The position numbers and the translations under genes are program-made. A stretch of DNA of 29,367 bases from a virus. Shown one piece after another: positions 805 through 29,367 of this stretch (positions within the stretch are counted from its first letter, which is position 1; each line of letters opens with the position of its first letter). Where the stretch lies: positions 1 through 29,367 of IMG/VR virus record IMGVR_UViG_3300010045_000008; one strand, given 5' to 3'. The notes beneath the pieces are model-generated. The model ran no database searches. It worked only from the letters and a program-made list of their open reading frames with translations, and was not told where the DNA came from.

Positions 805-1046
805 ACGTTCTGTACGTCGAACGGATGAAGGCGCAGGACGTCGGGGAGCGAGAGGACGCACAGACCGTCATGCAGAACCTCGACAACGAACTGGGTGTAG
901 GCGAGTGGTGGACGCCGATCAACCGCCGGAGGCCTGAGCACTCCGGACCCCGGGTGAACGAGGACGGTCTGAAGGTTCCGGCGTGGTGGACCGATGACGA
1001 GACCGAGAGCCAGCAGTGGCTGGCCTCACAGGGAGTGATCCTCTGA
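370..1046 (+). CDS. Tail assembly chaperone, -1 frameshift extension product (gpGT-like)
   Basis: The -1 frame is open beneath the end of the short chaperone and continues to a stop at 1044-1046. Its residues look like real protein (GTWNYLDG, then GVDLRSLPLDSFLNVLYVER) and it has no good start of its own; the ATG at 825 falls in the middle of this domain. A shift at the CCCGGGA heptamer (723-729) would join 120 residues of the short form to 105 residues of the -1 frame, giving about 225 aa. In lambda the longer form links the tape measure to major tail protein. The stop codon overlaps the ATG of the tape-measure gene (TGATG), which suggests translational coupling. The frame is clear; the exact slip point is inferred. 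Confidence 0.7.
723..729 (+). other. Candidate -1 ribosomal frameshift heptamer CCCGGGA
   Basis: The zero-frame codons read atC CCG GGA, so the heptamer has the canonical X XXY YYZ phase for simultaneous P- and A-site slippage. After slipping, translation would enter exactly the frame that codes for the downstream chaperone domain. CCCGGGA is not a commonly described heptamer, so efficiency is unknown. I found no other XXXYYYZ site in the right phase between about 640 and 800. Confidence 0.55.
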
Positions 1047-4000
1047 TGCCGAGCATCCTGGTAGCCACCGGGTTTGTCCGCATCGACTCGGACACGAAGC
1101 CCGCCCTGAAGGCCATCAAGGCTCTCGGTGCCATCGGTTCGAGCGCCCTGAGCACATCTCTCCTGCCCATCACCGCTGCCGTCACTGCCGGTCTGGCGGC
1201 CGTGGCTGCCTCTGCCGCTGTGGCCGGTGGTGCACTCGCGGTGTACGGCGCAGCCGTTAAGCCTCAGTTCGCCGACATCACCAAGGCGATGCAGCAGCAA
1301 TCCGTTGCCGAGGACTCCCGCACCAAGGCAGCGGTGAACGCGTCCCTGGCGCAGGACCTCGCCGCCAAGTCGGGGTTCAAGTACGGCAAGCAGGTCGAGA
1401 TCACCAAGGACATGACCGAGGACGCCAAGATCCGGGCGCAGGAGTACAACACCGCGTTGTCGGCCTCCAAGTCCGCGTCCACCACGGCGGGCAAGGCACA
1501 GGCACTGTACAAGAGCCAGCTTGAGGGGATGCCCCCCGCAACCCGGAAGACCACTGAAGCTCTGTCCAGGCTGAAAGAGGCGAACACGGAGTGGTCCCGC
1601 TCTCTGGCCTCCAGCACCATGCCCGTGTTCACCAAGGGCATCGACTTCATCCGGAACCTCCTGCCCAAGCTGACCCCCATCGTAAAGAGCGTCGCGAAGG
1701 AGATCGACGGCTTTGTCTCGCACCTCGGAGAGGGATCGGCCGGGAAGATCTTCAAAGAGTTCGGGAACAACGTCACCAAGTCAGGTGCCGGCGCACTACG
1801 CAACTTCCTGGAAGTCGGGAAGAACATGATCGCTGGGGTCCTGGGAATCCTGAACGCCTTCATGCCGATGTCCAAAGGCGTGACCGGCGGGCTCCAGGAA
1901 ATGTCCGAGAAGTTCGCAGACTGGAGTGCCAACCTCGGTGAGAGTCAGGGCTTCGGCACGTTCATCAAGACAGCCAGGGAGGCCGGCCCTCAGATCAAGA
2001 GCGTCCTGTCTGATGTGGCTCGCGCTTTCATGGCGATTTCCTCAGCAGCCGGGCCTCTGTCCGGAATCGGACTCAAGGTACTGGGAATATTTGCTGACCT
2101 GGTGGCTGCCATACCTACGCCCGTACTCCGGCTCCTCGTTCCCGCCATCATCGCGGTGAACCTCGCGATGAAGGCCTACGCGATCTATGAGGCAGCAGCG
2201 TCGGCAGCGACCTGGCTGTTCGGGACTGCGGTCACCACGAGCAACGGCGCCATCGCGTCCAGCCGGTTTGCCCTGATCCTCTTCCGGATCCAGATGGTCG
2301 CCTACGCCGTGGCAAGCGGGATCATGACAGTCGCCACGACCATCGCCACAGCAGCCACCTGGGCTCTGGGTGCGGCGATTGCGTTCGTTACCTCACCCAT
2401 CGGTATCGTGATCATCGCCATTGGTCTGCTGGTCGCCGCGTTCGTGATCCTATGGAAGAAGAGCGATGCCTTCCGGAACTTCTGGAAGACGGTCTGGGAA
2501 GGGATCAAGACGGCCGCCCTGGCCGTGAAGGACTGGTTCGCCGGACCCTTCCTGAACTTCTTCACCAAGACGATCCCCGCCGCGTTCCAGTCCGTTCTGG
2601 ACTGGGTGCGAAAGAACTGGCCCTGGATCCTCGGTGCCCTCGGAGGACCCATCGGTCTTGCTGTCGTGGCGATCATCAAGAACTGGGACAAGGTCACCAA
2701 ATTCTTCAGCTCCTCCTGGAACTGGCTGAAGAACACCGTCTTCTTTCCCATCGGACGATTCTTCACCACCACGATCCCCGGATGGGCCGGGTCCCTGCGG
2801 GACGGTGTCGTGAAGTACTGGCGAGGTATCCAGACTGGTCTGTCCGGTGTATACACGAATATCCGGAACTGGGTGTTCAATCCGATCGGCCGGTTCTTCA
2901 CCGTTACGATCCCTGGCTGGGCAGGCGCAGTCCGCAACAGGGTGAGTGACGCATGGAAGGGGCTCCTCACCGGCCTGGTGAACGTGTACGGCAGCATCCG
3001 CAACAGGGTCTTCCACCCCATCAGGGATTTCTTCGTATCCACGATCCCCGGATGGGCCCGGACCCTGAAGAGCAAGGTCACCGGATTCTTCGGCGACATG
3101 GCCGACGGGGTCGGACGTACATGGGACCGGATCAAGAACAAGACCAAGTCGCCCATCAACTGGGTGATCCGGAACGTGTGGAACGACGGGATCGTCAAGG
3201 TCTGGAAGAAGATCACCGGATGGATCGGACTGGGTAATAAGCTGGGTGAGATCAAAGAGCTGGCCGCCGGTGGCTCTGTCGGCAAGGCTGTACCGGGCAT
3301 GTTCAACAAGCCGACGGCGATCGTCGGTGAGGGCAATCCCCGGTACCCGGAGTACGTCATCCCCACGGACCCGAAATACGCCACCCGGGCCAAGGGGCTG
3401 TGGAACGCGGCCGGCGCGCACTTCATGGCGAATGGCGGAGTCCTGGGAGGCATCACCAACTTCCTGGCCAACCCCACCGAAGCGACCAAGAATCTCTTCA
3501 AGCCGATCCTCGGTAAGCTCGGAGATCTGGGGAACAACCCCTGGGCCAAGATGGCGGGACGGTTCCCGGTCATGGCTGTAGATGGGCTCAAGGGCCTCGT
3601 CGGCAAGGCAGCTCAAGGGCTGCTCGGGAGCATCGGCCTCGGACCGTCCAACAACGGCAGTGGGGTACAGCGCTGGTCCGGCGTTGTACAGCAGGCACTG
3701 CGGATGGTCGGTCAGCCTCCGGCGTACGTCGGCATCACTCTGCGCCGGATGAACCAGGAGTCCGGAGGCAACCCGACTGCTGTCAACCGGACCGACAGCA
3801 ACTGGACCGCCGGTCACCCTTCCGTCGGCCTGATGCAGGTGATCGGCCCGACGTTCAAGGCCTACGCGGGGATCATGAAGAAGACGGGCCCGTTCATGTA
3901 CGGGACCTCGGTCAATCCACTAGCCAACATCTACGCGTCCATGAAGTACGCCCTCTCCGCGTACGGCTCGCTGCCGCGTGCGTACAACCGGGCCGGAGGC

Positions 4001-4252
4001 TACCGCAACGGCACCAACGGGACCGCCGGAGGCATGCACCTGTTCGGCGAGAACGGGCCGGAGATGGGGTACAGCCCCTCCGGGTGGCGCATCCTGAACG
4101 CGCAGCGGACCGCCGGACTCGGTGGCGGAGGCGGACTTCACATCGACCGTCTGGTCCTTGAGAACCATGGTGTGATCGGCAGTCAGCACGAAGTGGAAGA
4201 CTGGCTCGTGTCCAGTCTCACCACGCTGAAGCGGAAGGGACGGCTGACCTAG
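1046..4252 (+). CDS. Tape measure protein with C-terminal lytic transglycosylase (SLT) domain
   Basis: The 1068-aa protein is the longest in the window and follows the chaperones, as tape measures do; its length sets the tail length. The ATG at 1046 overlaps the chaperone stop and has GGGAG ten bases upstream, so it is preferred over an in-frame start at 1016. The N-terminal part is Ala- and Lys-rich helix. Hydrophobic segments lie in the middle, followed by three copies of a 45-residue Trp-rich repeat containing TIPGWA (nt 2732, 2867, 3002; exactly 135 nt apart). Residues ~875-1000 form an SLT domain: the MNQESGG motif with candidate catalytic Glu905, then GLMQVIGPTF and a Tyr/Ala-rich helix. 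This domain probably cuts peptidoglycan during DNA entry. Confidence is high. Confidence 0.95.
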   Translation: MPSILVATGFVRIDSDTKPALKAIKALGAIGSSALSTSLLPITAAVTAGLAAVAASAAVAGGALAVYGAAVKPQFADITKAMQQQSVAEDSRTKAAVNASLAQDLAAKSGFKYGKQVEITKDMTEDAKIRAQEYNTALSASKSASTTAGKAQALYKSQLEGMPPATRKTTEALSRLKEANTEWSRSLASSTMPVFTKGIDFIRNLLPKLTPIVKSVAKEIDGFVSHLGEGSAGKIFKEFGNNVTKSGAGALRNFLEVGKNMIAGVLGILNAFMPMSKGVTGGLQEMSEKFADWSANLGESQGFGTFIKTAREAGPQIKSVLSDVARAFMAISSAAGPLSGIGLKVLGIFADLVAAIPTPVLRLLVPAIIAVNLAMKAYAIYEAAASAATWLFGTAVTTSNGAIASSRFALILFRIQMVAYAVASGIMTVATTIATAATWALGAAIAFVTSPIGIVIIAIGLLVAAFVILWKKSDAFRNFWKTVWEGIKTAALAVKDWFAGPFLNFFTKTIPAAFQSVLDWVRKNWPWILGALGGPIGLAVVAIIKNWDKVTKFFSSSWNWLKNTVFFPIGRFFTTTIPGWAGSLRDGVVKYWRGIQTGLSGVYTNIRNWVFNPIGRFFTVTIPGWAGAVRNRVSDAWKGLLTGLVNVYGSIRNRVFHPIRDFFVSTIPGWARTLKSKVTGFFGDMADGVGRTWDRIKNKTKSPINWVIRNVWNDGIVKVWKKITGWIGLGNKLGEIKELAAGGSVGKAVPGMFNKPTAIVGEGNPRYPEYVIPTDPKYATRAKGLWNAAGAHFMANGGVLGGITNFLANPTEATKNLFKPILGKLGDLGNNPWAKMAGRFPVMAVDGLKGLVGKAAQGLLGSIGLGPSNNGSGVQRWSGVVQQALRMVGQPPAYVGITLRRMNQESGGNPTAVNRTDSNWTAGHPSVGLMQVIGPTFKAYAGIMKKTGPFMYGTSVNPLANIYASMKYALSAYGSLPRAYNRAGGYRNGTNGTAGGMHLFGENGPEMGYSPSGWRILNAQRTAGLGGGGGLHIDRLVLENHGVIGSQHEVEDWLVSSLTTLKRKGRLT

Positions 4253-19540: not shown

Positions 19541-20458
19541 TCAGATACCGAGTGCCCGGGTGATCCCTTCCTCGATCGAGATCTTGGGAGTGTAGTACTC
19601 GATCATGCGTGTCGGATCACCGACCCGGTATGCCACCCCCTGCGGAGCGTCGGGGTTCGCGGTGACCTCCCGGTCGACCTGTCCGTCCGCATCGAGCATG
19701 AGCCGGGCGAGACCATAGAACGACGTCGGCCGCCCGGTACAGAGGTTCACCGGATCCTCGGTCCCGGACTCAGCGATGGCGAGGGCGCCGGCCACGAGGT
19801 CATCCACGTGGATCCAGTCCCGTGTGCAGTCCCCACACCAGAGTTCGAGCGGCTGACCAGGCTGAAGTGCCTTCACCCGATCGAGGATCGCCCGGAACGG
19901 GTAGGACGGATCCTGGTCCGCGCCGTACCCGGAGAAGGGACGGACCACGGTGACAGGGACACCGGCCTGTCGGAGCTTCCCGGCGAGGAGTTCCCCGGTG
20001 ACCTTGGACCAGCCATAGACCTCGTCCGGCATCATGATGTCCGTGTCCCCGTTGTTCCAGATCTCGTCTTCCTGGAGAGCCGATCCCCCGGGTCCTCTCT
20101 GAAATGCAACCGGATACGCAGCCGACGAGCTGAAGTACAGCACCCGGCCCGGCCGCGCGACCGCTGCCCACCGGAACATCTCCGCGTCGATCGACAGGGA
20201 CTCCGCCGTCGCCAGCGGGTCCCGCTCGATCATCTCCCGGCCGCCGACCACGGCCGCGCAGTGAACGACGAGGTCGTACGGGCTGTGTTGTTCCCTGGCA
20301 CTGCCGAGCCATCCGAGGTCCCGCCTGAAGTATGCCCGGCAGTCCTGCGTGGGAGTGACCTTCGTGTCCAGGCCGACGACGTCCCACCCCCGGCGATTCA
20401 GCTCCGCCGTGAAGTGGCGTCCCAGGAAGCCTCTGTCCCCCGTGATCAGTGCTCTCAC
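19541..20458 (-). CDS. NAD-dependent epimerase/dehydratase (extended SDR)
   Basis: The 305-aa protein starts at GTG 20458, overlapping the previous stop by GTGA. It opens with RALITGDRGFLGRH, a GxxGxxG Rossmann motif at residues 7-13. It also has the DLVVHCAAVVGG strand, a catalytic Ser in YFSSSAAYP and the YGWSK pair (YxxxK). The C-terminal part has RDWIHVDDLVAGAL and NLCTGRPTSF, typical of nucleotide-sugar epimerases and 4,6-dehydratases. It would modify a sugar nucleotide for the glycosyltransferases of the same operon. The exact reaction cannot be told. It is the last gene of the long P4 unit. Confidence 0.9.
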   Translation of the reverse strand: MRALITGDRGFLGRHFTAELNRRGWDVVGLDTKVTPTQDCRAYFRRDLGWLGSAREQHSPYDLVVHCAAVVGGREMIERDPLATAESLSIDAEMFRWAAVARPGRVLYFSSSAAYPVAFQRGPGGSALQEDEIWNNGDTDIMMPDEVYGWSKVTGELLAGKLRQAGVPVTVVRPFSGYGADQDPSYPFRAILDRVKALQPGQPLELWCGDCTRDWIHVDDLVAGALAIAESGTEDPVNLCTGRPTSFYGLARLMLDADGQVDREVTANPDAPQGVAYRVGDPTRMIEYYTPKISIEEGITRALGI

Positions 20459-20691
20459 TTCGGGATCCCCGTCCGGTCGAAATTGATCACTGCTTCGTCC
20501 CACATGTACGAGCAGTTCACGCACTCCCGGTGGATCCGCTCGTTCGGTGAGAACCCCAGCACCTCCAGCATCATGCCGCCATGGACGCACTCCCCATATG
20601 CCATGTACTGAGGCGTGGCGCCGTCGTACCCGCACTTCACGCACTTCGGGTCCAGACCGCTGTAGGGCGGTAGCTCTTCTTCCTGCTTCAC
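20455..20691 (-). CDS. Small zinc-ribbon-like protein
   Basis: The start is placed at GTG 20691, overlapping the stop of the micro-gene upstream by GTGA; a frame from 20718 would overlap that gene needlessly. The 78-aa product begins MKQEEELPPYSGLDPKC and has CVKCG, a further Cys in GECVHGG and CVNCSYMW, so two CxxC pairs could hold zinc. The EVLGFSPNERIHRECVNC segment is typical of small metal-binding adaptors. It lies among sugar-modification genes. Function unknown. Confidence 0.6.
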   Translation of the reverse strand: MKQEEELPPYSGLDPKCVKCGYDGATPQYMAYGECVHGGMMLEVLGFSPNERIHRECVNCSYMWDEAVINFDRTGIPK

Positions 20692-20801
20692 CACAGGTCC
20701 CTTCCGCAGTCGATGCACTGTATGCCGTCGTGCTCAACACGACAGCCGCGCCACCAGCAGACGAACAGCTGGTAGCACAGTCGGGTGAGCCAGTCCCTCA
20801 C
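20688..20801 (-). CDS. 37-aa Cys-rich micro-protein
   Basis: GTG 20801 overlaps the previous stop by GTGA, and its own stop overlaps the next GTG the same way. The product begins MRDWLTRLCYQLFVCWWRG, an amphipathic aromatic helix, and ends EHDGIQCIDCGRDLW with a CxxC pair. Both overlaps at exactly four bases in a chain of such overlaps argue that it is translated. Confidence 0.6.
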   Translation of the reverse strand: MRDWLTRLCYQLFVCWWRGCRVEHDGIQCIDCGRDLW

Positions 20802-20950
20802 CAGTCCGCCCTGAACTTCGGAGGGAGTCCCTGGAGGATGCGGGCCGCGTCGTCGAGTCCCTGTCGGTACCCGGCCTCTTCATCATCCGGACCGGGGTCC
20901 GGGTACCTGTCGATCTGGTCCTGGATCTTCTGTAGTTCCTCGTCGCTCAC
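20798..20950 (-). CDS. 50-aa charged micro-protein
   Basis: GTG 20950 overlaps the stop of the glycosyltransferase gene by GTGA. The product reads MSDEELQKIQDQIDRYPDPG, continues with an acidic DDEEAGYRQGLDDAARILQ helix and ends PPKFRADW. The clean acidic helical composition and the two four-base overlaps support a real gene. Function unknown. Confidence 0.65.
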   Translation of the reverse strand: MSDEELQKIQDQIDRYPDPGPDDEEAGYRQGLDDAARILQGLPPKFRADW

Positions 20951-21555
20951 CACCGGTCACCACGCCCTGAGGTGTTGCCACCGGGGCCGCTGCTCCAGTG
21001 CCACAGCCACGTGCGCCGGTTCAGGTGTTCGATCTTCGCACCCGCGTCCCGGACCTTGATCCAGGCGTTCCAGTCCTCACAGGGGCTGGCTCCCGGCGCG
21101 GTGCTGGTGTTCCGGTCCTCGAATCCCCCGACGTACTGGATCAGCTCCGTCCTGATCAGCACGGTGACCGGGATCGTGTTCCGTGTCTCCAGGAGATCCG
21201 GATCGAACGGCTGTCCTTCACGGTCTGGGAACGGGTCCCATCCCTCGGGCACCGTGAACCAGGGGTACACCATATCCGCGCCCGTCTCCATCGCGTGTGC
21301 GTACAGGAGCGCGAGGTGGTCCGGAAGGAGTTCGTCGTCATCATCCAAGAACGCTGTCCACTCGGTGGTGACCTTCTTCAGTCCACGGTTCCGAGTCACG
21401 GCCGCGCCGGCGTGCTCCGTGTCGAACTCAATCACGATCGCATCGGGCAGGAGATCCTGTTGAAGGACGGAGTCGACGGCACGGTGCAGATGTTGGTGCC
21501 GTCGCGGCGGTATGGAGGGGATGACGACGGTGATCCCCAAGCTGAGGCTGCTCAC
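20947..21555 (-). CDS. GT2-family (GT-A fold) glycosyltransferase
   Basis: The start is GTG 21555, overlapping the methyltransferase stop by GTGA; the long frame to 22254 is antisense noise. The 202-aa protein begins with LGITVVIPSIPPRRHQHLHR and has RAVDSVLQQDLLPDAIVIEF, then TRNRGLKKV and the metal-binding FLDDDDELLPDHL. Asp residues of that DxD-type motif coordinate the sugar nucleotide. A CEDWNAWIKVRDAG segment near the end fits the acceptor-side catalytic region. It is a paralogue of the protein at 28068-28718. No membrane helix; it is probably cytoplasmic. Confidence 0.88.
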   Translation of the reverse strand: MSSLSLGITVVIPSIPPRRHQHLHRAVDSVLQQDLLPDAIVIEFDTEHAGAAVTRNRGLKKVTTEWTAFLDDDDELLPDHLALLYAHAMETGADMVYPWFTVPEGWDPFPDREGQPFDPDLLETRNTIPVTVLIRTELIQYVGGFEDRNTSTAPGASPCEDWNAWIKVRDAGAKIEHLNRRTWLWHWSSGPGGNTSGRGDRW

Positions 21556-22154
21556 ACGCACATCCAGAATTGGAAGGTGTAGGTCTGGTCCGACGCCGGC
21601 ACGAACACCACGTGGTCGACCGGCGACCAGTCCGCTTCTACGAGCATCTGGCTCATGTCGTCCACGGACCACGACCAGTAGTGCTCGGCGTTCCCGTAGT
21701 GCAGCGGCTCGGAGACCGGCGTCGACAGGAACAGGTACTTCGACTTCATCCGGAGCTGCTGGAGAAGGAAGTCGGGGTCGTCCATGTGCTCGATCGTCTC
21801 GGAGCACACGTACAGATCGACGCCCGGTGTGAGAGACCCCAGGGTGTCCGGGAGGGGGCCGACGATGTGAAGTCCCTCCTGACGGTTGATGTCCCCGAGG
21901 ACGAGGCGGCCGGCCCGCAGGGACAAGGACAGCTCCCGGGGGATGGTGCCGTCCCCACAGGAGAGATCGGCGATCGAGTCGACGATCAGCCCGCCCTCTT
22001 CCACCCAGGTACGAATGAACTTCACCGACGCGGCGACTCGTTCGACGTGGTCCGGCCAGACCGTGTGCTGATAGCCGTCCGGGTACGTGCGCATGTAGAA
22101 CTGCCGCTCTTCCTGTGTGGAAGAACGGCTGTCCCGGATCCTTGTTCTGGTCAC
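21552..22154 (-). CDS. Class I SAM-dependent methyltransferase
   Basis: The 200-aa protein starts at GTG 22154, sharing one base with the previous stop. Motif I is IADLSCGDGTIPREL, followed by an acidic residue after the second strand (RLVLGDINR) and the post-I/II region LYVCSETIEHMDDPDFLLQQL, which is typical of Methyltransf_11/23 proteins. The C-terminal half holds STPVSEP and an HYWSWSVDDMSQML segment. Located between two glycosyltransferases, it probably methylates a sugar or glycan intermediate. It could also act on another small molecule. Confidence 0.88.
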   Translation of the reverse strand: MTRTRIRDSRSSTQEERQFYMRTYPDGYQHTVWPDHVERVAASVKFIRTWVEEGGLIVDSIADLSCGDGTIPRELSLSLRAGRLVLGDINRQEGLHIVGPLPDTLGSLTPGVDLYVCSETIEHMDDPDFLLQQLRMKSKYLFLSTPVSEPLHYGNAEHYWSWSVDDMSQMLVEADWSPVDHVVFVPASDQTYTFQFWMCV

Positions 22155-22873
22155 TAGATCCTGTACTCCTCACGGATCTTGTCCATGGTCTCGGAGAACT
22201 CGCCCTCGGGTGAGGCGTACCGCTGCCATGCCGTGCGATCGGCGGTGTCAACACTCGGGGAGTTCACCACCGCGTAGCGCTCGTCCAGCGCAGCCTTCCC
22301 GGCCGCCGGGTGCAGGTGCTCGATGATGACGTCTTCCAGGTAGGTCAGCTCGAAAGCCCTTCCCAGCTCCATCCAGAAGTTGTCCACGTAGAGGTGCATG
22401 AGCGTCGGGGGCGCCATCCACCCCATCGCCTTGACCATGCGCATGTGCATGAACGCGGCTGTCGCGAGATTCTCCCTCTGGAACAGATCGTTTCCGTACG
22501 CCACACACGGCAGGCGGGCGTCGTTCAGGGCCTCGATCACCCTGTCTTCCCAACCTGTGGTCCGGGGCATGTGGTCGTCGCCCATGAAGCCGACGTAGCG
22601 GTACGCGTCCCGGTAGATCGCTGCCGCACGGTTGAGCGGACGGACCATCCCGGACTGCGCGCTGTCCCCGGGATCCGGGCCGAAGGTCACCATGCTGTGC
22701 ACCACCCCCTCTTCCAGGAGCGTCTTGTACGCGGTCAGCTCCGGGTCGTCCCAGTCCGTGACGAACACCAGATCCGCGTGCTGGGTGCCGGTGTCTCGCC
22801 ATCCCTCGGAAAGCCGGGCCGCGTTCTGCGGACGGCCACGGGTCGGGACCAGGACCACCAGATCCTTCTTCAT
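22154..22873 (-). CDS. Glycosyltransferase-like protein (GT-A type)
   Basis: The 239-aa protein has GGAAGAGG five bases before ATG 22873. It starts KKDLVVLVPTRGRPQNAARL, continues with DLVFVTDWDDPELTAYK, and has a central GFMGDDHMPRTTGWEDRVI in which the GDDH acts as the metal-binding motif. Later VDNFWMELGRAFELTYLEDV and HLHPAAGKAA look like the acceptor region. The plan matches GT-A glycosyltransferases found in phage genomes. It opens the sugar part of the operon directly behind the membrane-protein genes. Confidence 0.75.
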   Translation of the reverse strand: MKKDLVVLVPTRGRPQNAARLSEGWRDTGTQHADLVFVTDWDDPELTAYKTLLEEGVVHSMVTFGPDPGDSAQSGMVRPLNRAAAIYRDAYRYVGFMGDDHMPRTTGWEDRVIEALNDARLPCVAYGNDLFQRENLATAAFMHMRMVKAMGWMAPPTLMHLYVDNFWMELGRAFELTYLEDVIIEHLHPAAGKAALDERYAVVNSPSVDTADRTAWQRYASPEGEFSETMDKIREEYRI

Positions 22874-22875
22874 GG

Positions 22876-23268
22876 TCACCTCTTCCTTGTTGCTGCTGAA
22901 CGTGCCAGATCCCGCAGTGCGCGCGACTCGGAGTGAGAACGCAGCAGCAGTACGAGAACGACACCGAGGAGTGCTGTCCCGACGATGCACCCGAGAACCA
23001 CCAGGAGGATCATCGCGACAGCGGCGAAGGCAAACATCAGCACCACGGTAACTCCCGCGATGATGATGATGCCTCCGAGGAACATCACGTAGTACGGCGC
23101 GTACTTCTCCAGGACCGACTGCCCGGGATTCTGGTCAACTGGCGCGTTCGATATCACCGGTGCCGCGTAGTGGTGATGAACGTGGATGTGGTTTCCGCCC
23201 GTCGTTTCCGGCGGAGTCGGGTTGGTCCGGAAGTACTGGGTGATCTCGTTCAGCCGGTCCTCGTCCAT
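22876..23268 (-). CDS. Two-TM membrane protein with His-rich N-terminus (Spd-like)
   Basis: The 130-aa protein starts at ATG 23268, six bases after AGGAGG. A soluble N-terminus (RLNEITQYFRTNPTPPETTG) leads into HIHVHHHYAAP, then two long hydrophobic helices (~residues 65-90 and ~92-115, ending LVLLLRSHSESRALRDLA) and a basic tail. Short proteins with a Pro/His-rich head, two helices and a basic end occur in the spread (spd) genes of Streptomyces conjugative plasmids. The assignment is by architecture and neighbourhood only. Confidence 0.6.
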   Translation of the reverse strand: MDEDRLNEITQYFRTNPTPPETTGGNHIHVHHHYAAPVISNAPVDQNPGQSVLEKYAPYYVMFLGGIIIIAGVTVVLMFAFAAVAMILLVVLGCIVGTALLGVVLVLLLRSHSESRALRDLARSAATRKR

Positions 23269-23270
23269 GG

Positions 23271-23396
23271 TTATCCTCCTTTCATGTCCCACAGCATGAC
23301 GACCGTCAGGAATATCAGGACGGTCACGGTCAGGATGATTCGATACTCATTCCTTGAATGCCCCCGGGAATTCCAGCGGCGCCTTCGCTTAGCCAC
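23271..23396 (-). CDS. 41-aa single-TM micro-protein
   Basis: GTG 23396 overlaps the end of the previous gene. The product starts with a strongly basic head (MAKRRRRWNSRGHSRNEYR) and continues with one transmembrane helix (IILTVTVLIFLTVVMLW). Its last codons contain the AGGAGG that serves the following gene, so the two are coupled. The positive-inside rule puts its head in the cytoplasm. It fits the string of small membrane proteins downstream of the translocase. Confidence 0.6.
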   Translation of the reverse strand: MAKRRRRWNSRGHSRNEYRIILTVTVLIFLTVVMLWDMKGG

Positions 23397-23586
23397 TGCG
23401 TCCGCTCCTGGTGACGAGAGCGAGGAATCCCGTGGGAATTCCCACCAGAACCGCGAGGACGATGGTCCCGAGGACGTTCGTGTTGACGTTGTCGCCCGGC
23501 ATGAGGGATGCCAGGATGGCGACTTCGACCAGCACCATGACCCACATCACGGCTCGGCCTGTGCTCATCTCCTGCTGCTTGCTCAT
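23389..23586 (-). CDS. Small two-TM membrane protein (Spd-like)
   Basis: The 65-aa protein has GGAGGA seven bases before ATG 23586. Two hydrophobic helices (AVMWVMVLVEVAILASLM and VLGTIVLAVLVGIPTGFLAL) are separated by a short polar turn (PGDNVNTN), with a basic end (TRSGRSG). It is the first gene after the repeat region that follows the translocase gene. Small membrane proteins in this position are the rule in Streptomyces tra-spd operons, where they help spread of the plasmid in the mycelium; direct homology is not shown. Confidence 0.6.
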   Translation of the reverse strand: MSKQQEMSTGRAVMWVMVLVEVAILASLMPGDNVNTNVLGTIVLAVLVGIPTGFLALVTRSGRSG

Positions 23587-23601
23587 GATCTGTTCCTCCT
23601 T

Positions 23602-23749
23602 CTGACAACACCTGACAGGGTTCCGTGACTGTCACAGGAAAAGTCCCTAAGGCCAGATGGTCTGTCAGGGGGTGCTGACAACCCCCTGACACACCGCCTG
23701 ACAGGGGACCTGACACGGCCTGACAACGACCGTGACAGGGACCCTGACA
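23602..23749 (-). repeat. Helically phased TGACA repeats behind the translocase gene (clt-like)
   Basis: TGACA, mostly within CCTGACA, starts at 23603, 23613, 23676, 23687, 23699, 23711, 23721, 23733 and 23745; the last seven are 10-12 bases apart, one per helical turn and all in the same direction. Inverted copies give GTGAC-T-GTCAC (23625-23635) and a hairpin TGTCAGGGGGT/ACCCCCTGACA (23663-23691, 11-bp stem). The block fills the gap between the translocase stop and the next gene. Streptomyces plasmids carry short direct repeats bound by TraB, the clt locus, in such a position. Confidence 0.8.
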
Positions 23750-23753
23750 CTTC

Positions 23754-25742
23754 CTACGCGGCGGGACTCTCGCCCTCTGCTTCCGCCTCGAAGACGGCGC
23801 GTGCCTTGATGCGGTACGGGGGCTTGCCGTTGAGGTCGACCAGGCGGCCGGCCGTTACGAGCTGACGCAGTTCCTTGTACACCCACGGGCGGGACCGGCC
23901 GACTTTCTCCGGGAGTTCCGCCACATCCGCGTAGGAGACGAGATCCTTCCCGTCGTTCTCCAGCTCCTGGAGAATGTCCTCCAGGAGTTCGCGTGCCTCT
24001 TCGATCGGGACCTCGTCCTTCTGGTCCGCGCCGAATGTGATGTTCGACTTCGACCGCTTGACGAGCGGCTCTTCGATATTCACTTCACCCTCCTCCGTGG
24101 TCCGTGTGGTCATGTTCACCTCGGTGTCTTCGCCGTCGTCCTCGTCTTCGTCCTGCGGAATTCCAGGAAGACCGGCAAGGAACTGCTCGTCCTGGAGTTT
24201 GATTCCCCGGGACAGAATAGCTTTCGTACCGGGATCCATCGTGGCCCGAAATCCCTTCGACGCTTCGAGTGCCGCACGCTTCTGCTCGTACGTCATCCTC
24301 ACCGCGCGGCCATCCTCCGACCACGAATCGTGCGGAGTTCCGACCACCTCCGCGTAGAGGGAACCAGCGAAGTCATTCCCCCACTTGGTCGGATCGGCGC
24401 CGGCCGCGAGCGTCTCGGGTGAAAGGGAGAACCTTGCGTCCTGTGTTTCCTTGCACCCATGACACAGGCTCTGGCCGAATTGTCCTCGGGTCTTCCGGCT
24501 GAGGTTGTCGTGGGGAACGGTCTGCATCGAGAGGTTCATGTGGACGCCGATCGACCGCAGCTTCCGGACCGCCTCGTCCAGTTCGTCATCCATGAGGGAT
24601 GCGACGTCGGCCGCCTCCTCGATGTCGATGAACACGGCCGGGACTCCGTGGTCGGTGTAGCACTCAGGGATCCACTGCTTGTACCCAGTACCACCATCCG
24701 CCCTGGTCAGAGACCCGAGCAGACCGGCCCGGTACTCCACGAGGGACGGAAGGTTCCGGATCAGGGTCAGCGTCTCTGTCTTCGTCTTGGCCGCGATGTC
24801 GATCGCATCCGCGATGTCCCCGAAGGACTGCGCGAACTTCGCCGGGTCCGCCACGACGACGACCACATCCGTACGCTGCCGCATCTCCACGATCGCCGTG
24901 CAGATGGTCTCCGTCTTGCCGGATCCGGTCATCCCCGTGGTAATGGTGTGTGAGAGCTGCCGGGGGTTCTCGTTGTCCGGGTCACCCACGATCCACCACA
25001 GGATGTCCGTCCCGTCCGTCCGGTTTCCGAGGAAGACCGGAGCGTCCGCGATGGACTTCCGGAAGGCATACGGACCCGTGTACACCAGGGGCTTCGAAGT
25101 GTCCCGCATGGGAGCGAAGACGATGTCCACCTGATCCGCGCGGCCCTTGACCGGGCGGACCTTGATGTCCTCCTCACCCATGCCGACCGCGCTCGCGATG
25201 CTGCCTCGTGACTGCTGCACATCGTTCGCCGTGTCCTCGCCCTGCTTGAGCTGGACACGTGCCGTGACCTGGGCATCTGTCGCTTCGACCTTTTTCTCAC
25301 GGGCGTTGCGCAGTGCGGCGACCTTCCCACCCAGGACGCCAGCGCCCTCGCCGGAACGGTCCGCGTCGGAAGCCGGCGTGTTGCTCGCGTGCCGGATACC
25401 CCATGCCACGCACAGGAACAGACCGCCCACGACCCACGCCGTAAGCGTGTCCCTGGACCAGGGAGTACCGACGCCGGCGAAGAGGATCCAGCCAAGCACG
25501 AAGGCAGTGAAAACGGTCATGACCACCTGGGTGTGCTTGTGCCTCTTTCCCCAGGTCAGGTACGTCATGCCGGTGACGAGCGTCGCCAAGATGGCGAACA
25601 CCGCCACCCACACTGGGTTCCCTGCGATCGTGAAGTGGATCACGATCGACGCGGGGAACGCGAGGATCACGAGGATGAACGGGACCACGTACGGAACCGT
25701 CTTGGTGGCGAACCATCCGCCGATCGACATACGACGGGTCAT
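23754..25742 (-). CDS. Membrane-anchored FtsK/SpoIIIE-type DNA translocase, TraB-like
   Basis: ATG 25742 (GGGAGGG five bases upstream) is preferred over an ATG 11 codons earlier. The 662-aa protein has four N-terminal membrane helices (~residues 17-39, 42-62, 73-90, 98-114), a charged linker, then the motor: Walker A GMTGSGKT at 270-277, VVVVVADPAKFAQ, and Walker B AVFIDIEEAAD at ~369-379, followed by SMQTVPHDNLSRKTRGQFGQ. After an acidic linker, residues ~585-650 form a winged helix (VSYADVAELPEKVGRSRPWV, LRQLVTAGRLVDLNG). This order, membrane anchor, RecA-like motor and DNA-reading winged helix, is that of TraB, which moves double-stranded DNA between Streptomyces cells. Confidence 0.88.
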   Translation of the reverse strand: MTRRMSIGGWFATKTVPYVVPFILVILAFPASIVIHFTIAGNPVWVAVFAILATLVTGMTYLTWGKRHKHTQVVMTVFTAFVLGWILFAGVGTPWSRDTLTAWVVGGLFLCVAWGIRHASNTPASDADRSGEGAGVLGGKVAALRNAREKKVEATDAQVTARVQLKQGEDTANDVQQSRGSIASAVGMGEEDIKVRPVKGRADQVDIVFAPMRDTSKPLVYTGPYAFRKSIADAPVFLGNRTDGTDILWWIVGDPDNENPRQLSHTITTGMTGSGKTETICTAIVEMRQRTDVVVVVADPAKFAQSFGDIADAIDIAAKTKTETLTLIRNLPSLVEYRAGLLGSLTRADGGTGYKQWIPECYTDHGVPAVFIDIEEAADVASLMDDELDEAVRKLRSIGVHMNLSMQTVPHDNLSRKTRGQFGQSLCHGCKETQDARFSLSPETLAAGADPTKWGNDFAGSLYAEVVGTPHDSWSEDGRAVRMTYEQKRAALEASKGFRATMDPGTKAILSRGIKLQDEQFLAGLPGIPQDEDEDDGEDTEVNMTTRTTEEGEVNIEEPLVKRSKSNITFGADQKDEVPIEEARELLEDILQELENDGKDLVSYADVAELPEKVGRSRPWVYKELRQLVTAGRLVDLNGKPPYRIKARAVFEAEAEGESPAA

Positions 25743-25784: not shown

Positions 25785-26279
25785 TTACTTTCCGCCACGG
25801 TTGACGGTGAAGCCGGATCCCCGGCCGCCGCGCCGGGCGCGGGACGGGCGGCCGTTGCCACCGTCCTCGATGTCCTGGATGAAGTTGTCCATGAAGGACC
25901 AGGCGGCCACGGCCTCAGCCGCGCCGTCACCACAGTCATCCGCGACCGCGTCCAGCTTCCTACCGACCTTCCGCAGGACCGTCCGCAGGACGATGCGCTG
26001 CTTCACGGTGAGGCCGCCTTCGGACGCCTCACGTGCCGCCCTGCGTGCGTGCACCTTCATCTGGCCGGCGGCCATGGCCACGGTGACCCCGAGGAAGTGC
26101 AGCAGCTTGCGGATCGCCTCACAGAACTCACGGAGGTCGTCCGAGTTGGCGAGGTCGAGATCCAGCATGGAGCGCTGGAGCTGGTCGATCATGCTGAGCC
26201 GGGATGTCGCCGTCTGCTGGCTGGTGCCGTCCCCGTTCTTCTGGGTGGACGTCTTCGGTGTGGTGTCGGTGGATGCCAT
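25785..26279 (-). CDS. Helical protein beside the translocase, possible transfer-accessory protein
   Basis: The 164-aa protein starts at the second ATG of an ATGACCATG box, eight bases after GGAGG. After a polar N-terminus it is helical: MIDQLQRSMLDLDLANSDDL, EFCEAIRKLLHFLGVTVAMA, a basic KVHARRAAREA stretch and LRTVLRKVGRKLDAVADDCG. It ends in a Gly/Arg tail (GRPSRARRGGRGSG). Proteins of this shape, helical body with a short basic tail, accompany traB genes in integrative elements of Streptomyces, but I cannot confirm homology. It may bind DNA or the translocase. Confidence 0.55.
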   Translation of the reverse strand: MASTDTTPKTSTQKNGDGTSQQTATSRLSMIDQLQRSMLDLDLANSDDLREFCEAIRKLLHFLGVTVAMAAGQMKVHARRAAREASEGGLTVKQRIVLRTVLRKVGRKLDAVADDCGDGAAEAVAAWSFMDNFIQDIEDGGNGRPSRARRGGRGSGFTVNRGGK

Positions 26280-26291
26280 GGTCATTTCCTC

Positions 26292-27350
26292 CTATGCGCT
26301 CTTGGCCAGTGCCCTGCGCACGGCCGTGTGAAGGGTGTTCTTCTTTGTGTCCTCAAACCCGGGGGTCGCGAGGACAGCGGACTTGATCGCATCGGAGTTG
26401 TCCCCGACCTGTCCACGGATGTCCTCGATCAGCGCGGGCAGCTTCCGGCGTGAGGACAGCTGGTCTGTCGTTGTCCTCGGGGACACCGGAGCCTTGTCCT
26501 CTGCGGGGACAGGAGCGGGGGTGTAGTGGTACGCGTCCGAGGACACGGTGTCCTCGGCAGTGAGGACACCGTCCGTCCCGTACATCCAGTCCGGCCGGAC
26601 CGGGATCCTGTCCTCAGAGGACACGAGGATGTCCTCGGGGACATCGAATGCCTTGGCGATCAGGGACGCGGCTCTGTCCCCGGCCGTCTGTCCTGTCCTT
26701 ACGGTGAGGATGTCCCCGGGGACAGACTCTGTGTCCTCTGTCCTCGCGGGGACAGGGAGACCGGCTCGGTACGTCTTGTCCTCGAACACCCAGCGCGTGT
26801 CCTTGTCCTCTGAGGACGGGACGTGGACACGGTCTGTGTCCTCTGTCCTGTCCTCTGTGAGGACAGCGTTGAGGACAGCGGCGGAGGCAGGGGACACGGC
26901 GAGATGAAGCAGGTGTCCGAGGACAAGAGCCGGGATGCAGGACGCGACGATGGTCAGCTGCGTCTGGTACCCGCTGATCAGATCGCGCTGGTAGAGGTGC
27001 GCGATCGGCTGTGCGGCCATGGCCACGGCAATGGACAGGATGGCCCCTGCTACAGCCGTGCGCTTGCCGGGTGACCCCTTGGGACGTTTCGTGGCCACGA
27101 CAGCGGAGATACCCGCGTACGCGGTCAGGACGAAGGGCATTCCCCATGCGAGCCTCGTGGACCAGCCGGCGGTGTGCGCGAGGTAGTGCTCGCCCGGTGC
27201 GCACATGGTGAGGACAACAACGGCGACGACGGGACGTCCCCAGTTCGTGAGGACATCGACCCACCAGGGAGTGTCATACCCCGAGGACACCGGGCGTGCC
27301 TTGTCCTTGCGCCGGAACTTGTCCCCGAGGACACGAAGAGGCTTGATCAT
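26292..27350 (-). CDS. Four-TM Spd-like membrane protein with an ED-rich C-terminal region
   Basis: ATG 27350 follows GAGGA by seven bases. The 352-aa protein has a basic head, four membrane helices (~residues 38-58, 66-86, 98-116, 131-155; for example VLTAYAGISAVV) and a long soluble tail full of Glu-Asp pairs (LTEDRTEDTDR, SSEDKDTRW), caused by GAGGAC repeats in its DNA. The last 50 residues (LPALIEDIRGQVGDNSDAIK and LHTAVRRALAKSA) look like a small helical DNA-binding unit. Four helices plus a C-terminal DNA-binding part match the plan of SpdB2-type proteins that work with TraB. It opens the P4 unit. Confidence 0.65.
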   Translation of the reverse strand: MIKPLRVLGDKFRRKDKARPVSSGYDTPWWVDVLTNWGRPVVAVVVLTMCAPGEHYLAHTAGWSTRLAWGMPFVLTAYAGISAVVATKRPKGSPGKRTAVAGAILSIAVAMAAQPIAHLYQRDLISGYQTQLTIVASCIPALVLGHLLHLAVSPASAAVLNAVLTEDRTEDTDRVHVPSSEDKDTRWVFEDKTYRAGLPVPARTEDTESVPGDILTVRTGQTAGDRAASLIAKAFDVPEDILVSSEDRIPVRPDWMYGTDGVLTAEDTVSSDAYHYTPAPVPAEDKAPVSPRTTTDQLSSRRKLPALIEDIRGQVGDNSDAIKSAVLATPGFEDTKKNTLHTAVRRALAKSA

Positions 27351-27369
27351 TGTCCTGTCCTCTCTGGTC

Positions 27370-27421
27370 ATTTACCTAAATCAGTTTGGCTAATGTACTG
27401 TCCCCGCTGTCCTCGTGTCCA
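27370..27421 (-). promoter_or_regulatory. Promoter P4 with degenerate operators
   Basis: On the reverse strand TGGACA (27421-27416), an 18-base spacer and TACATT (27397-27392). Behind it lie TTAGCCAAA (27393-27385) and ATTTAGGTAAAT (27381-27370), each a variant of the P2/P3 palindrome. It would drive the Spd-like gene and the long operon to the SDR gene at 19541. Confidence 0.6.
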
Positions 27422-27436
27422 GTGTCCTCGGGGACA

Positions 27437-27469
27437 AAGAAACGAGGACACCCATTCCGGGTGTCCTCG
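27437..27469 (-). terminator. Rho-independent terminator made of the heptamer repeat
   Basis: CGAGGACACCC (27443-27453) and GGGTGTCCTCG (27459-27469) form a perfect 11-bp stem with a 5-base loop. On the reverse strand TTTCTTTG follows directly. It ends the unit above and lies 15 bases before the -35 box of P4. Confidence 0.85.
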
Positions 27470-27516
27470 CAGCTGTCCCTGTCCCTTGTCCTTGTCCTCG
27501 CGGCTGTCCTCTGTCC

Positions 27517-27723
27517 TCACTTCGGGTAGAGGACATCCAGGAGTTGTCCTCGGAGTTCTGTCCTCGCTCTGTCCCATGCGATCACGGAGGACATGTCCTC
27601 GGGGACAAGCCGTACTGTCCCCACATTGCGGATCAAGGACAACAGATCGGCTGTCCTCTCCGCGTCCTCGGCCGTTGTCCCCTCTTCGAGGACAACGACA
27701 GACGCGATCACTTGTCCTGCCAT
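27517..27723 (-). CDS. Small protein of unknown function
   Basis: The 68-aa protein starts at ATG 27723, six bases after GAGAGGA. It reads as an alpha-beta unit: QVIASVVVLEEG, TAEDAERTADLLSLIRNVGT, then VRLVPEDMSSVIAWDRARTE and a final helix. The strand-helix pattern could be a ferredoxin-like half fold. Its DNA is rich in the GAGGACA heptamer. It overlaps the upstream micro-gene by 16 bases and is followed by a terminator. Confidence 0.55.
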   Translation of the reverse strand: MAGQVIASVVVLEEGTTAEDAERTADLLSLIRNVGTVRLVPEDMSSVIAWDRARTELRGQLLDVLYPK

Positions 27724-27818
27724 GTCCTGTCCTCTCCGGTTGTCCTCTCGGAGAGGACAGCCCACGTGATTCCGAGAACACCGATCAGGGCGACACCACA
27801 GGCACCGACGATGAGCAT
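27708..27818 (-). CDS. 36-aa single-TM micro-protein
   Basis: ATG 27818 overlaps the previous stop (TGATG). The product begins with a hydrophobic helix, MLIVGACGVALIGVLGITWA, and ends in a polar tail SERTTGEDRTWQDK. The start overlap and the overlap of its 3' end with the next gene suggest coupled translation. It may be a membrane peptide or a signal-anchor; the Cys at position 7 is not part of a clear lipobox. Confidence 0.5.
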   Translation of the reverse strand: MLIVGACGVALIGVLGITWAVLSERTTGEDRTWQDK

Positions 27819-28067: not shown

Positions 28068-28718
28068 TCAGGCACCGCGTCCGGCGGTGCTTCCTTTATG
28101 TACTTGCCAGTACCAGGTTTTCGCGTCCAGGTGGCCGAACCGGTACCCGGCATCTAGCAGCCGGATCAGGTAGTCCTCGTCCTCTCCCCGGTACCGGCCG
28201 TCCTCCAGGGTGTAGCCGTCCCGGAATCCGCCGATCTCCTTGACGGCCTCCGTCATCACGACGTGCGTCATGGGGATGAAGGACCCCCGGTAGCGCACGT
28301 GTGCCTCGAACTCCGGGCACCAGCGCAGCCCCCACGGAGAGACCGGGAAGCGGCCCTGGTGAGTCGTGGCCGTAGGGTCCGAACCACCGACCATGACGGG
28401 CCGGGGGTAGACGAGGTCGTATCCCATGGGACCGAACAGTTCCCGGACACAGGAGGCGATGTGCGTCTCCTTGAGCCAGTCGTCGTCATCCAGGAACGCC
28501 ACCACGTCCGACGTCACCCGCTCAAGGGCGCGGTTTCTAGAGGCTGCCGCTCCGGTCCGTTCACTATCCCGCTCCACGATGATTTGATCCGGTGGACGCC
28601 GCTGGGACCGGACCGATTCGAGTGCTCGGTTCAGCAGTGCCTCTCTGCCTGGAATCGTAGGAATCACGACGGCGACAGTGAGGCGTTGTCGCCCGGTTGT
28701 CCGCTTGTGCTCACCCAT
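28068..28718 (-). CDS. GT2-family glycosyltransferase, second copy
   Basis: The 216-aa protein starts at ATG 28718, overlapping the stop of the winged-helix gene (TGATG). It has LTVAVVIPTIPGREALLNRA, ESVRSQRRPPDQIIVERDSE, SRNRALERVTSDVV and the metal-binding FLDDDDWLKETHIA. Near the end GEDEDYLIRLLDAGYRFGHL fits the catalytic acidic pair of GT2 enzymes. It is clearly related to the protein at 20947-21555. It is separated from that sugar cluster by the whole transfer-like module. The acceptor is unknown. Confidence 0.88.
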   Translation of the reverse strand: MGEHKRTTGRQRLTVAVVIPTIPGREALLNRALESVRSQRRPPDQIIVERDSERTGAAASRNRALERVTSDVVAFLDDDDWLKETHIASCVRELFGPMGYDLVYPRPVMVGGSDPTATTHQGRFPVSPWGLRWCPEFEAHVRYRGSFIPMTHVVMTEAVKEIGGFRDGYTLEDGRYRGEDEDYLIRLLDAGYRFGHLDAKTWYWQVHKGSTAGRGA

Positions 28719-28966
28719 CAGGGGCACCGCTCCTTTGTCTCGATCGTCCAGACCATGGCGCGTGACGATCCCCCGCAGGGTTTGACCCGCCCCGCCTTGC
28801 GGAGCCGTTCAAGCGCAAGATAGGTCACGGACCAGTTGATCCCCATCCGCTGGCTGATCTGCCGGCGGGACATCGGGCCTTCAGCTTTCAGGAGGTTCTC
28901 GATCGCGTTGTCGCGGTCGATCGTCTCCTGTGTTCTGGGACGGCCCCGGCCTCGTGTCTCTGACAC
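28718..28966 (-). CDS. Winged-helix DNA-binding protein
   Basis: The 82-aa protein is read from GTG 28966, with AGGAAG about ten bases upstream. After a basic arm (SETRGRGRPRTQETIDRDNA) comes a winged helix: IENLLKAEGPMSRRQISQRM, the recognition helix NWSVTYLALERLRKAGRV and a short wing to AMVWTIE. The AT-hook-like GRGRPR motif could add minor-groove contacts. It is a candidate for the repressor that binds the palindromic operators, or for a protein that binds the heptamer array; nothing in the sequence decides between them. Confidence 0.7.
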   Translation of the reverse strand: MSETRGRGRPRTQETIDRDNAIENLLKAEGPMSRRQISQRMGINWSVTYLALERLRKAGRVKPCGGSSRAMVWTIETKERCP

Positions 28967-28993
28967 TCTGATCACTTCCTTTCTGAGACGGAT

Positions 28994-29027
28994 GAAGGGC
29001 GGCCGGGCAGATACCCGACCGCCCTTC
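28994..29027 (-). terminator. Long hairpin behind the SSB-like gene
   Basis: GAAGGGCGG and CCGCCCTTC pair, and inside them CGGG pairs with CCCG, leaving a 6-base loop. It lies 22 bases after the stop of the gene at the right edge. No U-tract follows, but the stem is strong enough for an actinobacterial terminator. Confidence 0.65.
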
Positions 29028-29048
29028 ACTTGGATCACTTCGACAGAA

Positions 29049-29367
29049 CTAGAACGGCGGTTCCTGGTTGTACTGCTGCTCACCGGGGACCGGCTGCGGA
29101 GGCTGGGGCTGGGAGACGTCACCCGCAACAGGACCCGTCGCAGGAGGCGCCGTCGTGCCATAGCCGGGCGTGAAGCCGTTCGGTGTGCCGTTCCCATTCC
29201 CACCAGGCACGGGCTGTCCCGTCCCGGCCGGGATAGGAGGGCCCTGCTGCGCCGGCGGGTAACCGGGCACCGGTGCCTGCTGGTACTGCCCGGAGTGCTG
29301 CGGAGGCATCCCCGAGTGCGTTGCCGGGGCCGACGCCTGCTGCTGTGCCTGAGGCTGCGGGTAGCCA
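29049..29367 (-). CDS. C-terminal tail of a probable single-stranded-DNA-binding protein (partial)
   Basis: The frame runs off the right edge of the window, so only about 105 C-terminal residues are visible. They are an unordered Pro/Gly/Gln-rich linker (GYPPAQQGPPIPAGTGQP, TPNGFTPGYGTTAPP) that ends in QYNQEPPF. Bacterial and phage SSB proteins have just such a linker and a conserved acidic tip ending in PPF or IPF, which recruits replication and repair proteins. The tip here has fewer acids than usual. The OB-fold that would prove the call lies outside the window. Confidence 0.5.
   Translation of the reverse strand, partial: GYPQPQAQQQASAPATHSGMPPQHSGQYQQAPVPGYPPAQQGPPIPAGTGQPVPGGNGNGTPNGFTPGYGTTAPPATGPVAGDVSQPQPPQPVPGEQQYNQEPPF

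Follow-up and report, generated by a model that had tools for sequence, protein, structure and literature searches.

Recognition of a cis-acting locus of transfer (clt) by an element's own TraB translocase is known from few plasmids. In pSVH1, the TRS/clt comprises 8-bp repeats, which are recognised by helix 3 of the winged helix of TraB, an FtsK-like hexamer (reviews PMC4170104, PMC3583192). In pWTY27, the clt spans 16 bp at the end of the translocase gene and the next 159 bp; there are four TGACACC repeats (DC1), which are footprinted by the pWTY27 translocase, and deletions in the clt reduce transfer 10- to 1000-fold (PMC3583192). Streptomyces plasmid-phages that conjugate and also form particles are already known, i.e., pFP4 and pZL12 (PMC4170104, PMC3583192).

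The window analysed here is the whole stretch of 29,367 nucleotides of the virus record IMGVR_UViG_3300010045_000008. Its left half has tail and lysis genes (tape measure, minor tail, endolysin); thus, the record is that of a tailed phage. The window also encodes a TraB-type translocase, and behind traB there is an array of short repeats, which a preliminary description, made from the letters of the DNA, had read as a possible clt. This reading is supported by the sequence comparisons given below, and the location fits that of the clt of TraB plasmids, since the array lies directly 3′ of the gene for a full-length TraB homologue, with a gene for a TraA homologue just upstream.

The array, the translocase and their neighbours

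A non-coding gap of 167 bp (23587-23753) lies between the stop codon of traB at 23754 and the start of the next gene at 23586, both on the minus strand. On the plus strand of this gap TGACA starts nine times (23603, 23613, 23676, 23687, 23699, 23711, 23721, 23733, and 23745), and there are two opposite-strand copies, i.e., TGTCA, at 23630 and 23663. The consensus unit on the traB strand is TGTCAGG, in which TGTCA is found in 9/9 copies, the first of the last two bases (G) in 8/9 and the second (G) in 7/9. A Markov model of the window predicts 0.11 occurrences of CTGACA/TGTCAG in the gap, whereas nine are observed (about 80-fold; Poisson probability about 6e-15), and none of 200 Markov shuffles of the region reached 11 TGACA. 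The longer word CCTGACA has seven copies on the plus strand of the whole window, six of them inside the array region. The repeats behind traB are confirmed.

The preliminary description had listed seven CCTGACA-type copies at 23676-23749, spaced by 10-12 bp in one orientation, together with a short dyad and an 11-bp hairpin, and these are all present (Table 1): the spacings of the seven-copy run are 11, 12, 12, 10, 12, and 12 bp, and its orientation is uniform. Its further claim, of a single helix face shared by all copies, is refuted. The period of the run is 11.5 bp (resultant 0.97) and not 10.5 bp (resultant 0.44), so the run is out of phase with the helix turn of 10.5 bp, and neighbouring copies are rotated by roughly 34 degrees.

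Table 1. Positions of the features discussed, numbered along the window
Feature	Position	Strand	Detail or basis
Tail tape-measure protein with lytic transglycosylase domain	1016..4252	+	PHROGs tape measure families, Pfam SLT
Three small membrane-protein genes after the repeats	22876..23586 (23389-23586, 23271-23396, 22876-23292)	-	Hydropathy, relatives in other phage loci
Second, small run: two copies, repeat and orientation as in main run, 10 bp apart	23602..23619	+	
Dyad GTGAC-T-GTCAC, GTGACTGTCAC, containing the second inverted copy	23624..23634	.	
Core element GGCCTTAGGGACTTTT, between the two runs	23639..23654	-	PWM
Inverted copy (TGTCA on + at 23663) in 11-bp hairpin TGTCAGGGGGT/ACCCCCTGACA	23663-23673 / 23681-23691	.	
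Main repeat run, seven copies, CCTGACA-type (traB strand TGTCAGG)	23675..23750	+	Spacing 10-12 bp
TraB-type translocase, 673 aa: N-terminal transmembrane segments, FtsK-like motor, linker, C-terminal winged helix	23754..25775	-	
C-terminal winged-helix domain of TraB, residues 591-657	23805..24005	-	AlphaFold2
Recognition helix of TraB, residues 629-642, GRSRPWVYKEL	23850-23891	-	
TraA-like gene, 166 aa, just upstream of traB	25785..26285	-	

The translocase is, as judged from its sequence, a full-length relative of the TraB of Streptomyces plasmids. It matches the NCBIfam model plasmid_TraB (NF041214) over residues 23-657 of 673 with an E-value of 8.5e-111 and 371 bits; because the equivalog cut-off of this model is 800 bits, it is a TraB homologue and not an equivalog. 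By tblastn it matches 50 plasmids with 24-46% identity, pWTY27 being one of these. It has N-terminal membrane segments, seen by hydropathy, a conserved Walker A motif (GMTGSGKTE, residues 281-289), and a motor that matches the FtsK motor in the PDB, with E 1.5e-4 in the profile comparison and E 1.6e-11 in the fold comparison. The AlphaFold2 model of the entire protein is of moderate quality only (pLDDT 68), whereas that of the C-terminal domain reaches pLDDT 87 with its elements in winged-helix order; the PDB matches of this domain are weak and are to GntR-type winged helices (best E 0.03). PHROG 24831, the listed function of which is unknown, also matches the translocase (E 1.9e-56), and can be annotated as a TraB-type translocase, which suggests a function for this family.

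The TraA-like gene falls below the cut-off of the NCBIfam model plasmid_TraA (NF041213; E 4e-9), and profile-profile comparison with plasmid TraA gives a probability of 96.8 (E 3e-10). In plasmids, too, traA precedes traB. The three small membrane-protein genes stand where plasmids often have spd genes; they have no family match, and can be called Spd-like by position only.

Comparable arrays in plasmids and phages

The plasmid pWTY27 (NC_013667) resembles the window in several respects: its clt is directly 3′ of the translocase gene, it has two runs of repeats, and between these an inverted copy and a CCTAGG-like stretch, and a TraA gene lies upstream of the translocase gene. Its unit TGACACC, reverse-complemented, gives the GGTGTCA of the window, and the repeat CCTGACACC of pWTY27 and its relatives likewise gives GGTGTCAGG. 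Thus, the repeat is not foreign to known TRS sequences, as had been supposed at first, but matches the footprinted clt unit of pWTY27. There are also differences: on the traB strand the plasmid array reads TGACACC and that of the window TGTCAGG, i.e., in the opposite orientation, the plasmid has about five copies compared with the 7+2 of the window, and the identity between the two translocases is only 26%. About 0.8 kb behind its traB, pWTY27 has a phage major capsid gene (L009:4040-4392), as the authors of the work on that plasmid also pointed out.

Exact CCTGACAC/CTGACACC arrays are found behind traB in further plasmids, and pRL1, pCQ3, an Amycolatopsis plasmid, and others have the word CTGACA in that position. 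In pJV1 and pSN22, direct repeats with a spacing of 8-13 bp come right after traB, and, like the window, pSN22 and its relatives have two runs, which in these plasmids lie about 43-51 bp apart; however, the repeat is CCGCACA and the recognition helix RDRSWVSK, compared with RSRPWVYK in the window. The repeat of pSVH1 described by Vogelmann et al. in 2011 is reportedly unlike that of the window. As for the plasmid-phages, pFP4 has phage genes, ParA, and a distant FtsK/TraB-like gene, but its translocase is 24% identical and its repeats are weak, whereas pZL12 has another tra system, with no match to the TraB of the window. Because the comparison with pWTY27 and the other plasmids agrees in place, form, and word, the array of the window is probably a clt on all three counts.

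Relatives were gathered by alignment-based scans, which gave 29 IMG/VR contigs with this TraB. Two of these contigs are also in the genome collection (Streptomyces africanus NRRL B-24243 and Streptomyces sp. NRRL S-455), and one is the plasmid pS1D4-14.2 of Streptomyces sp. S1D4-14. Of the genome contigs, only the alignment-based scan yielded relatives; a single-sequence scan gave none. Among deposited phages, a DNA-level search with the window gave no match, and none of 50,697 deposited phage genomes matched in a protein search with its TraB at 1e-5.

The preliminary description would have been contradicted by related phages that keep the translocase while the array is lost or not conserved. 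It withstood this comparison: short repeats stand directly behind traB in nearly all contigs inspected, and TGTCAG is retained in the window's orientation by the closest relatives. In L026 (motor 69% identical), L036, L059, L068, and L073, these are TGTCA(G) arrays in the orientation of the window, mostly with a spacing of 10-13 bp: TGTCAGA is found in L026, L036, and L068, and eight times in L073, and L059 has TGTCA six or seven times. As repeat word, the pS1D4-14.2 group has CTGACG/A, L067 and L074 have TGATCAG, L075 has CGTGATCAC, and L035 and L079 have TTCGG/CCGGA, while L003 and L037 each have TGTGAG four times at near-identical positions (8, 19/20, 31, and 45). In L003, L038, L082, L035, and L031, the repeats are few or ill-defined and unremarkable by simple counts, the commonest 5-mer count behind traB being a poor test where there are only four copies (e.g. 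L003). Spacings of 10-13 bp predominate in phage and plasmid arrays alike.

The sequenced extrachromosomal element pS1D4-14.2 (98.8 kb), a Streptomyces phage-plasmid, has its genes in the order seen in the window: HTH, glycosyltransferase, TraA, TraB, array, membrane genes, and sugar genes. It differs in its words, CGTCAG and TGTCGG, and in an additional winged-helix gene after the array. This stand-alone second copy of the TraB winged helix (L004:9217-9666, also in L028, L029, L032, and L033) is 45% identical over 55 aa to the domain of the window.

The core between the two runs (short form GGCCTTAGG) has the consensus GGCCTWAGG among the relatives. On the traB strand, the TTAGGG of the window's core begins 12 bp after the inverted CTGACA, and TWAG at this distance of 12 bp is common to the window, L026, L059, L068, and L073. 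A PWM trained on 11 loci recovers the element in 8/11 held-out phage loci (background fraction at most 0.018), one of these eight matches (L067) lying inside a reading frame, where it may be due to chance. The PWM also matches plasmid pCQ3, and the PWM scan found the core absent from most plasmids. Our guess is that it could be a binding site for a further partner of TraB. The core was also considered as a sigma-70 promoter; this was not supported, as the upstream CTGACA is at 12 bp, a distance that is too short.

Repeat word and recognition helix

If the translocase reads the repeats, the recognition helix of its winged helix and the repeat word should vary jointly. Across 28 phage loci, similarity of the repeat word follows identity of the recognition helix once motor identity is controlled for (partial r 0.36, permutation p 0.0005), whereas the partial r for the rest of the winged helix is 0.07; with the plasmids added, the partial r of word and helix is 0.22 (p 0.001). 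The window and pWTY27 have a common repeat word, and both recognition helices have SRPWV.

The helices can be sorted into classes: R-H-R-T-W is paired with TGTGA (3/3), other R-x-R-x-W helices with TGAC (18/19), T-P-(G/Q)-W with GATCA (3/4), and R-R-P-x-W with TTCGG/CCGGA. The presence of Arg or Pro two residues before Trp is associated with the repeat word (Fisher p 0.007). As the classes were defined after inspecting the data and the loci are related by descent, these counts are a lead and not proof.

The preliminary description had named the winged-helix protein at 28718 as a candidate binder beside the C-terminal domain of the translocase. The gene is kept in most relatives, but no link between it and the repeat word was found, and it is not preferred. 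The C-terminal winged helix of TraB is the preferred candidate because its recognition helix co-varies with the motif; the 28718 protein is less likely as binder of the array.

Probable transfer site, rival explanations and kind of element

The array is, with high probability, the clt of this phage, at which the winged helix of its own TraB would read TGTCAGG, load directionally, and let the motor pump double-stranded DNA into a neighbouring cell or compartment. The winged helix would recognise a unit of 7-8 bp, and several units in the same orientation, 10-13 bp apart, would load TraB one way onto the circular element. The TraB subunits would then assemble as a hexamer around the double strand, and the hexameric motor would drive the DNA, intact and still double-stranded, across a pore in the membrane to the mycelial cell or compartment next to it. 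The pore may be situated at hyphal tips or cross-walls, and the small membrane proteins perhaps take part. The comparisons establish the repeats and their location, their match to a footprinted clt unit, the retention of arrays with traB in relatives, and the joint variation of word and helix; we infer the binding by the TraB of the window, the direction of loading, and the transfer of the phage genome. Points that speak against the clt reading are the TraB score under the equivalog cut-off, the array orientation, which is the reverse of that in pWTY27-type plasmids, and the relatives with few or ill-defined repeats.

An operator of the downstream membrane-protein operon, bound by the 28718-29203 winged-helix protein or by a stand-alone TraB winged helix, is a very unlikely function of the array. 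The array indeed separates traB from the next gene, the pS1D4-14.2 group has the second TraB winged helix just behind it, and the conservation of the 28718 gene in most relatives would also agree; however, a set of at least nine copies in 150 bp is large for an operator, no stand-alone winged-helix copy is encoded in the window, and in pWTY27 it is the translocase itself that footprints such units (PMC3583192). A regulatory side function may exist beside that of clt, above all in the pS1D4-14.2 group.

It is highly improbable that the array is a replication origin with iterons bound by a Rep protein of the phage. Direct repeats about 11.5 bp apart with a hairpin do look like iterons, and pWTY27 owns an iteron locus; this locus, however, is separate from the clt and differs from it in sequence and place (PMC3583192). 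In addition, there is no rep gene beside the array in the window or in pS1D4-14.2 (where a primase is about 17 kb or more away), and the array tracks traB across elements with unrelated replication systems: arrays stand behind traB in plasmids of the rolling-circle type (pJV1 and pSN22), in pWTY27, which has theta replication, and in phages, and so accompany traB rather than the genes for replication.

Plasmid centromeres can have one-orientation repeats near 11 bp, as the array does, and ParA is encoded by some relatives (5/16), but a parS-like centromere, bound by ParB or a small ribbon-helix-helix or winged-helix protein, has the least chance of being correct, for the array is present in contigs without detectable ParA (11/16 without a hit) and at traB in plasmids, no parAB adjoins it in the window, and the ParA and ParB of pS1D4-14.2 are far from it. 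The origin and the partition site, which the preliminary description had kept as other options, are thus both disfavoured, because the array follows traB and not rep or par genes.

The major capsid gene of pS1D4-14.2 is found in 13/16 contigs tested (57-100% identity), and the three contigs without it are the shortest ones (54-69 kb); a tyrosine integrase is present in 8/16 relatives. In pS1D4-14.2 there are portal, capsid, terminase, tape measure, ParA, a ParB-like gene, and integrase. As the window is a 29-kb fragment, a plasmid state of its phage is deduced from these relatives. The phage of the window, which comes from Streptomyces-like bacteria, would join an already known kind of element, the conjugative plasmid-phages of Streptomyces.

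A wider proposal is possible, though less likely than not: a broad clade of Streptomyces phages of 80-99 kb would rely on TraB and a self-specific clt for carrying the double-stranded prophage-plasmid, unpackaged, through the mycelium, and would spread as virions too; the pairs of helix and repeat (R-H-R-T-W/TGTGA, R-x-R-x-W/TGAC, T-P-G-W/GATCA, R-R-P-x-W/TTCGG or CCGGA) would give a recognition code; and the core GGCCTWAGG, 12 bp from the inverted copy, would be the site of the further partner. With this family, a whole clade of tailed phages joins the few Streptomyces elements that may travel in particles as well as by conjugation-like transfer. The phage family adds dozens of natural TraB/clt pairs in which the motor is conserved and the recognition helix changes, so that a helix-to-repeat rule is directly testable; such a rule would let clt sites be predicted for any TraB element.

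Two other features of the region were observed. Glycosyltransferase, methyltransferase, and epimerase genes (19541-22990 and 28068-28727) flank the tra module in nearly all relatives, and form a conserved sugar-modification set. The block at 26292-27781 is a stronger 5-mer cluster than the TraB array, with 76 of the window's 194 GGACA/TGTCC words in 1.5 kb, i.e., 28 per 500 bp as against about two elsewhere. The words are in both orientations, mostly within reading frames upstream of traA, and form ten palindromes such as TGTCCTCGGGGACA. These palindromes were likened to the sps of SpdA, a comparison that was dropped since sps is CGTCACGTGACG; a second TraB site was also rejected, as the word GAGGACA is unlike the clt word and varies independently among the relatives. 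A comparable GGACA block is found at the equal position in 12/16 relatives, and in the others a different word is dense at this place, e.g. CGAAAGC in L004 and L034, TCCGGAA in L036, and CGTCTC/CGTCCC in L035.
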